This document shows, in pieces, positions 2,563-18,519 of a stretch of DNA of 60,607 nt (within the stretch, counting starts at the first letter, position 1; each line of letters opens with the position of its first letter). The position numbers and the translations under genes are program-made. The stretch is from an uncultured Pelagibacteraceae bacterium (GTDB taxonomy: Bacteria > Pseudomonadota > Alphaproteobacteria > Pelagibacterales > Pelagibacteraceae): the NCBI GenBank assembly GCA_902555185.1, contig CACDSA010000005.1:1-60607 (forward strand). Direction: 5' to 3'. The notes under the pieces were generated by a model. That model saw only the letters and a program-made list of their open reading frames with translations. It was not told the DNA's origin and did no database searches.

Positions 2563-2608
2563 TTAGTTTAACTACTATAATATTTTTTTTTTGTGAAGTT
2601 AAATTATA

Positions 2609-2681
2609 AGCCCAATTGAGAATGGGAGGGAGTAATACAATAAGATTATTCTCAATTAGGCTAAAACATCCTTTTATTACC
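2609..2681 (-). ncRNA. Candidate pseudoknotted leader RNA upstream of ccmC
   Basis: A 15-bp stem (2609-2623 with 2648-2662) encloses a 24-base loop. Bases 2631-2637 in that loop can pair with 2675-2681 outside the stem, giving a 7-bp H-type pseudoknot. Each helix has one non-Watson-Crick position; read on the minus strand both are G-U wobbles, on the plus strand both would be A-C mismatches. This favours a minus-strand RNA in the leader of ccmCDEF or the 3' region of hspQ. The loop also holds a CCCTCCC tract. No U-run follows, so it does not look like a terminator. I do not recognise a named family. The rest of the 2563-2736 gap holds only A/T-rich DNA. Confidence 0.4.
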
Positions 2682-2736: not shown

Positions 2737-3060
2737 TTAATTAGATATTTTGAGGTAACTTGATCCTTTTTTACCTGAAAAAATTTCCTCAATTAGAGGG
2801 TGCTTCACAGGCTCTTTGGAACTATCTAAAAGTAAATTTTGCTCTGAAACGTAAGCTTCGTAAGTTACGTCATTACTTTCGGCCAAAAGATGATAAAAAG
2901 GTTGGTCTTTTCTAGGTCTTACTTCTTTTGGGATCGATTGGTACCACTCCTCTGAATTATTAAATTCAAAGTCAACGTCATAAATTACTCCTCTAAAATC
3001 GAAATGACGGTGTTTAACCACTTCTCCTATTGAAAATTTAGCTCTATTACTTATTGCCAT
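2737..3060 (-). CDS. hspQ: Heat-shock protein HspQ (YccV-like)
   Basis: Small protein of the HspQ/YccV family, which in E. coli binds hemimethylated DNA and acts as a specificity-enhancing factor for Lon. It has 107 residues with the family core: KFSIGEVVKHRHFDFRGVIYDVD at the N terminus, the PFYHLLAE strand near residue 75 and YVSEQNLL near residue 92. It is transcribed toward ccmC with a 174-base gap that contains the candidate leader RNA, so it may be a separate unit. It has its own divergent upstream region facing yciB. Confidence 0.9.
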   Translation of the reverse strand: MAISNRAKFSIGEVVKHRHFDFRGVIYDVDFEFNNSEEWYQSIPKEVRPRKDQPFYHLLAESNDVTYEAYVSEQNLLLDSSKEPVKHPLIEEIFSGKKGSSYLKISN

Positions 3061-18468: not shown

Positions 18469-18486
18469 TAAACAATTATTTAAAAT

Positions 18487-18519
18487 TAAAAGGGGCGATT
18501 TATTCGCCCCTTTTTTTTT
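18487..18519 (+). terminator. Rho-independent terminator after actP
   Basis: GGGGCGA-TTTAT-TCGCCCC forms a perfect 7-bp GC-rich stem with a five-base loop, flanked by A4 on the left and T9 on the right. It lies 18 bases after the actP stop and is one of only two classical terminators seen in the window. Confidence 0.95.

Follow-up and report, generated by a model that had tools for sequence, protein, structure and literature searches.

A conserved minus-strand RNA with a C-rich loop between hspQ and ccmC in SAR11 bacteria, a probable trans-acting small RNA

What does a SAR11 genome keep in the 174 bases between hspQ and ccmC? The window analyzed here, a stretch of 60,607 nucleotides from a SAR11 genome (Pelagibacteraceae), carries on its minus strand, in this order, hspQ (2737-3060, PF08755), the 174-base gap, ccmC (1849-2562, PF01578), ccmD, and ccmE, the last two names being taken from their position and from a first-pass annotation of the sequence. 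That annotation had correctly placed the gap between two minus-strand genes and had read it as a pseudoknotted leader RNA of ccmC, possibly under the control of haem or iron. A conserved small protein was rejected as the content of the 174-base gap, since no open reading frame of 40 amino acids was found in it.

The proposed stem was borne out. Read on the minus strand, a 5' arm at 2648-2662 pairs with a 3' arm at 2609-2623 over 15 nt, with 24 nt between them and a single non-Watson-Crick pair, which is U-G on this strand. This 15-bp helix is the longest in the gap; in 300 dinucleotide shuffles of the same 174 bases, the longest helix averages 8.2 and never exceeds 12. Within the genus, a DNA search gave matches in 114 of 169 genomes (some of them short chance matches, though only a few), and 104 hspQ-ccmC gaps of 165 to 194 nt were aligned, with a non-redundant set of 63 sequences that includes the window's own. 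In alignment A1, 99.0% of the stem cells pair and 7 of the 14 pairs show two-sided changes (38 cells), values reached by none of 500 shuffles, and sliding the partner by one column lowers pairing to 53-57%. Across the family (57 sequences), both sides have changed in 11 of 14 pairs, and the covariation check across the gaps of relatives thus revealed a conserved and strongly covarying stem.

The strand of this RNA follows from the same alignments. On the 63 non-redundant sequences, RNAalifold returned a single stem with a score of -16.15 on the minus strand and only a poor fold (-4.16) on the plus strand. Moreover, stem cells in the 104 genus sequences comprise, on the minus strand, 1189 Watson-Crick pairs, 156 G-U pairs, and 1 A-C pair. 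Because a G-U pair on one strand is an A-C pair on the other, the plus-strand reading would retain one G-U pair versus 156, and the RNA is that of the minus strand. The G-U argument of the first-pass annotation, weak from a single sequence, is hence strong for the stem across relatives, and a plus-strand RNA, which would lose the G-U pairs of its stem and folds poorly, was rejected. Altogether, the hspQ-ccmC gap contains a conserved, covarying, structured minus-strand RNA.

Upstream of the hairpin lies a conserved block at 2680-2727 on the minus strand (GCC..AAAT..AACA...TT....CAAA..T..GaCA), with a mean identity of 0.79 versus 0.48 just upstream in the 63 non-redundant genus sequences. The elements run from this block through 11 nt (N11) to TAnnnT, the family consensus of a -10-like hexamer that is TAATAA in the window (2674-2679, minus strand). 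From GCC to the TA of the hexamer, all 57 family sequences are free of gaps, and the hexamer itself has T at position 1 in 53, A at position 2 in all 57, and T at position 6 in 37 of them. Its fixed distance from the block, together with a TA-to-hairpin distance that varies from 13 to 19, has the pattern of a promoter with a 5' end of variable length behind it. We infer that the block is the promoter or activator region of the RNA, and transcription would start at the G of a conserved tGTT at about 2667 on the minus strand, seven bases past the -10-like hexamer. Since the -35 region is unlike TTGACA, an activator may possibly act at this promoter. A general regulator site was rejected as an explanation of the block because, in the SAR11 loci checked among the matches listed, the exact block occurs only at this locus. 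In each of the 41 Pelagibacteraceae loci with the exact block among these matches, CTCCCT is found 93 to 98 nt further on. Another alphaproteobacterial locus among the matches listed (L337) has the block without CTCCCT. In some genus members (L076 and L090, 5' part of the gap), the block has at its middle a perfect palindrome, AAATCTATGaCATAGATTT, that may serve as a regulator site.

A second conserved block (2570-2598, minus strand) lies downstream of the hairpin, shortly before the ccmC ATG, and consists of CTTCAC, an A-run, and TATTATAGTAGTT / TATTATAGTAGT, with mean identities of 0.96, 0.83, and 0.91 for its three pieces. TATAAA-like boxes occupy the same place in other genera, and this suggests that ccmC has a separate, nearly leaderless promoter of its own. 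Within this block, the conserved CTTCAC, located 13 nt upstream of TATAGT, is unusual.

The H-type pseudoknot proposed on top of the stem did not withstand comparison. The 7-bp complementarity between 2631-2637 and 2675-2681 is literally present, but a loop-upstream helix of at least 7 bp occurs in 54% of 300 dinucleotide shuffles, and the longest such helix averages 5.8 in relatives versus 5.6 in shuffles. Six of its seven pairs are kept in only 6 of the 63 relatives, the window's sequence counted. The pseudoknot was therefore rejected, its second helix being at chance level and unconserved and its outer arm overlapping the putative -10 box. An intrinsic terminator was likewise rejected, given the 24-nt loop, the absence of a U-run on the minus strand, and a terminator scan that recognized none for the RNA.

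The loop of the hairpin (2624-2647, minus strand) is open and pyrimidine-rich, with a core of the invariant type, ACUCCCUC at 2626-2633, as the proposed seed. In other genera, the predicted folds are hairpins of 12 to 19 bp with an open loop of about 20 to 28 nt containing CUCCCU(C/U); in genus g5, the predicted fold has a small inner helix within the loop. CUCCCU is near-invariant in the family (an exception, L148, has CUCACU) while the sequence of the stem differs greatly between genera, and the loop is for this reason likely the working part of the RNA.

A model joining the upstream block and the hairpin (R2) matched 313 of the 397 genomes of the order, including 127 of the 151 that are at least 90% complete, and 9 of its 13 genera. 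The window's genome has one copy; its remaining matches either repeat that site on the opposite strand or score no better than chance. Class-wide sampling added just one convincing match, from a genome with another family label (G739), again in the arrangement hspQ-RNA-ccmC; two weak matches (L280 and L281) were rejected because they are situated within coding genes. The Rfam search suggested at annotation assigned no family: the window's gap and six representative loci gave no gathering-score match in Rfam 15, and known families were rejected, as only far sub-threshold chance matches appeared. This is a real, new, and widespread SAR11 RNA family outside Rfam, and it may be one of the ocean small RNAs left uncharacterised by Shi et al. 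(2009, Nature). Like the structured RNAs of Meyer et al. (2009, PMC2704228), it is a conserved RNA element in a SAR11 intergenic region, whereas those of that study with an assigned role are mostly cis-acting or housekeeping; the hspQ-ccmC gap is absent from its Table 1 of GC-rich, GC-ranked gaps.

Does this RNA serve one of its neighbours? The order hspQ-RNA-ccmC, found in most genera and probably ancestral, would suit a hairpin that lies within the ccmCDE mRNA and regulates it in cis, as initially proposed, and so would the absence of a terminator between the RNA and ccmC and a locus (L267) in which the RNA precedes ccmC without hspQ, the upstream gene resembling an ABC permease. A cis-acting leader or riboswitch should nevertheless always stand directly upstream of ccmC, and in genera g3 and g6 (L178, L181, L182, and L184-L187) as well as in L163, the RNA follows hspQ while the next gene is not ccmC (L186 has a PagL-family gene, PF09411, in that place). 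In those g3 and g6 genomes where ccmC turned up at another location, no convincing R2 match lay near it. With, in addition, a -10-like box between the hairpin and the ccmC ATG, directly ahead of the latter, and an unconserved pseudoknot, the ccmC leader is unsupported and appears quite unlikely to us, and nothing was found pointing to haem or iron. The RNA starts 80 to 90 nt past the hspQ stop in nearly all loci, even those without ccmC, as might be expected of an element of the hspQ 3' UTR, either a hairpin stabilising the 3' end or an RNA cut from the hspQ mRNA. We consider this unlikely, as the RNA persists without hspQ in L267 and behind an insertion of about 735 nt between hspQ and the RNA in L301 (AG-439-F03), the upstream block looks like a promoter, and a stability hairpin needs no large loop with an invariant C-rich core. 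Because of these arrangements in g3, g6, L163, L267, and L301, the RNA belongs to neither neighbour.

The element might also act otherwise than by pairing with mRNA. Inverted repeats can be operator sites, and this one is flanked on both sides by conserved promoter-like DNA; a regulator binding site with no RNA role is however barely credible, given the strand asymmetry of the G-U pairs (156 versus 1) and stem sequences that change wholly between genera while pairing is retained. Alternatively, the loop could titrate or deliver a protein, for which the near-invariance of CUCCCU would be as suitable and which agrees with counts of AGGGAG sites in the genus that do not exceed those of a reversed-pattern control. 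Open C-rich loops are nevertheless typical of base-pairing RNAs, and in some genera the loop and the proteorhodopsin sites seem to have changed in step, making a protein-binding RNA very unlikely in our view.

From the sequence evidence, we consider it reasonably probable that this is a stand-alone SAR11 small RNA whose C-rich CUCCCU seed loop pairs in trans with G-rich ribosome-binding sites without Hfq. We propose a model in which the promoter at about 2674-2727 would give a minus-strand transcript starting near 2667, which would fold at once into the hairpin of 12 to 19 bp and present a C-rich open loop of 20 to 28 nt with its near-invariant seed. The loop would most likely base-pair in trans with ribosome-binding sites of the AGGGAG type, thus blocking or tuning translation, with the mRNAs of proteorhodopsin, the ammonium transporter (amt), and ftsZ as candidate targets. 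No Hfq (PF17209) was found in 21 Pelagibacterales genomes by a search that detects it in Caulobacter, and the action would hence be Hfq-independent.

A stable hairpin exposing a conserved C-rich loop is what characterizes base-pairing small RNAs of the C-rich-loop type, and the SAR11 RNA has one. In Firmicutes, the UCCC-type loops of such RNAs (RsaE/RoxS, IsrR, and LhrC) bind Shine-Dalgarno regions. The SAR11 RNA has a C-rich loop of the same type, but these bacteria are unrelated to SAR11 and some of their RNAs have several C-rich sites. The likeness would be one of function, and the SAR11 targets are candidates. GsrN of Caulobacter is likewise a small RNA with an exposed C-rich hairpin loop, which pairs with G-rich stretches of mRNA, the katG leader among them (PMC5869019). 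Its loop has six tandem C instead of CUCCCU, its sequence, locus, and promoter are different, and Caulobacter has Hfq whereas none was found in the 21 SAR11 genomes. No GGAAC motif of the sigma-EcfG type occurs on the minus strand of 2668-2736, and membership in the GsrN family was rejected on the absence of such a -35; at most, the SAR11 RNA works like GsrN.

Which mRNAs could carry the sites? Among 149 open reading frames sampled from the window's genome with simple first-ATG starts, AGGGAG precedes none and GGAG precedes 6. In a search of three genomes for AGGGAG-N3-12-ATG, the genus genomes displayed no genome-wide excess over the reversed pattern, versus 29 against 17 in the one genome outside the genus. 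The only orthologous AGGGAG starts common to the two genus genomes are those of proteorhodopsin, amt, and ftsZ, named from reading the protein sequences, and the starts of the third genome also include proteorhodopsin and amt. Of 27 proteorhodopsin genes, 23 retain AGGGAG (g1, g2, g4, g7, and g12), with deviating sites in g9 (AGGAGA), g5 (AGGGGATT), and g6 (GAGAGG). The loop base that follows CUCCCU matches the site in g1 and g4 (C opposite G) and in g12 and g7 (U opposite A), with g2 as an exception, and the g5 site reaches -14.8 kcal/mol with its own loop versus -9.1 to -11.0 with the loops of three other genera. These co-changes reflect a small number of evolutionary events, and AGGGAG may be conserved just for its role in ribosome binding; the three targets are accordingly a lead rather than a result. 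No proteorhodopsin gene was found in the genome of the window (78% complete), and the small RNA does occur in genomes in which that gene was not found. As a separate observation, proteorhodopsin leaders (L478-L497) hardly vary within the genus, most reading AAACGAGGGAGGTTTTC-ATG, although Shine-Dalgarno motifs are uncommon in the window's genome.

We advance only tentatively, and as less likely than not, the broader idea that a near-universal, Hfq-independent SAR11 RNA uses its one CUCCCU loop, which co-evolved with its target sites, to control how proteorhodopsin, the ammonium transporter, and FtsZ are translated. Such control would couple energy from light to nitrogen uptake and cell division in bacteria with very few regulators. 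SAR11 count among the most numerous marine bacteria and have few known regulators, and the RNA described here is conserved, single-copy, and outside Rfam in a lineage without detected Hfq. An RNA with conserved complementarity to the proteorhodopsin and amt starts would be a concrete, testable regulator balancing light energy and nitrogen. Elsewhere in the window, a strong hairpin resembling an intrinsic terminator is located at 18483-18519 (AAAAGGGGCGA / TCGCCCCTTTTTTTTT) and is among the few of its kind in this stretch.
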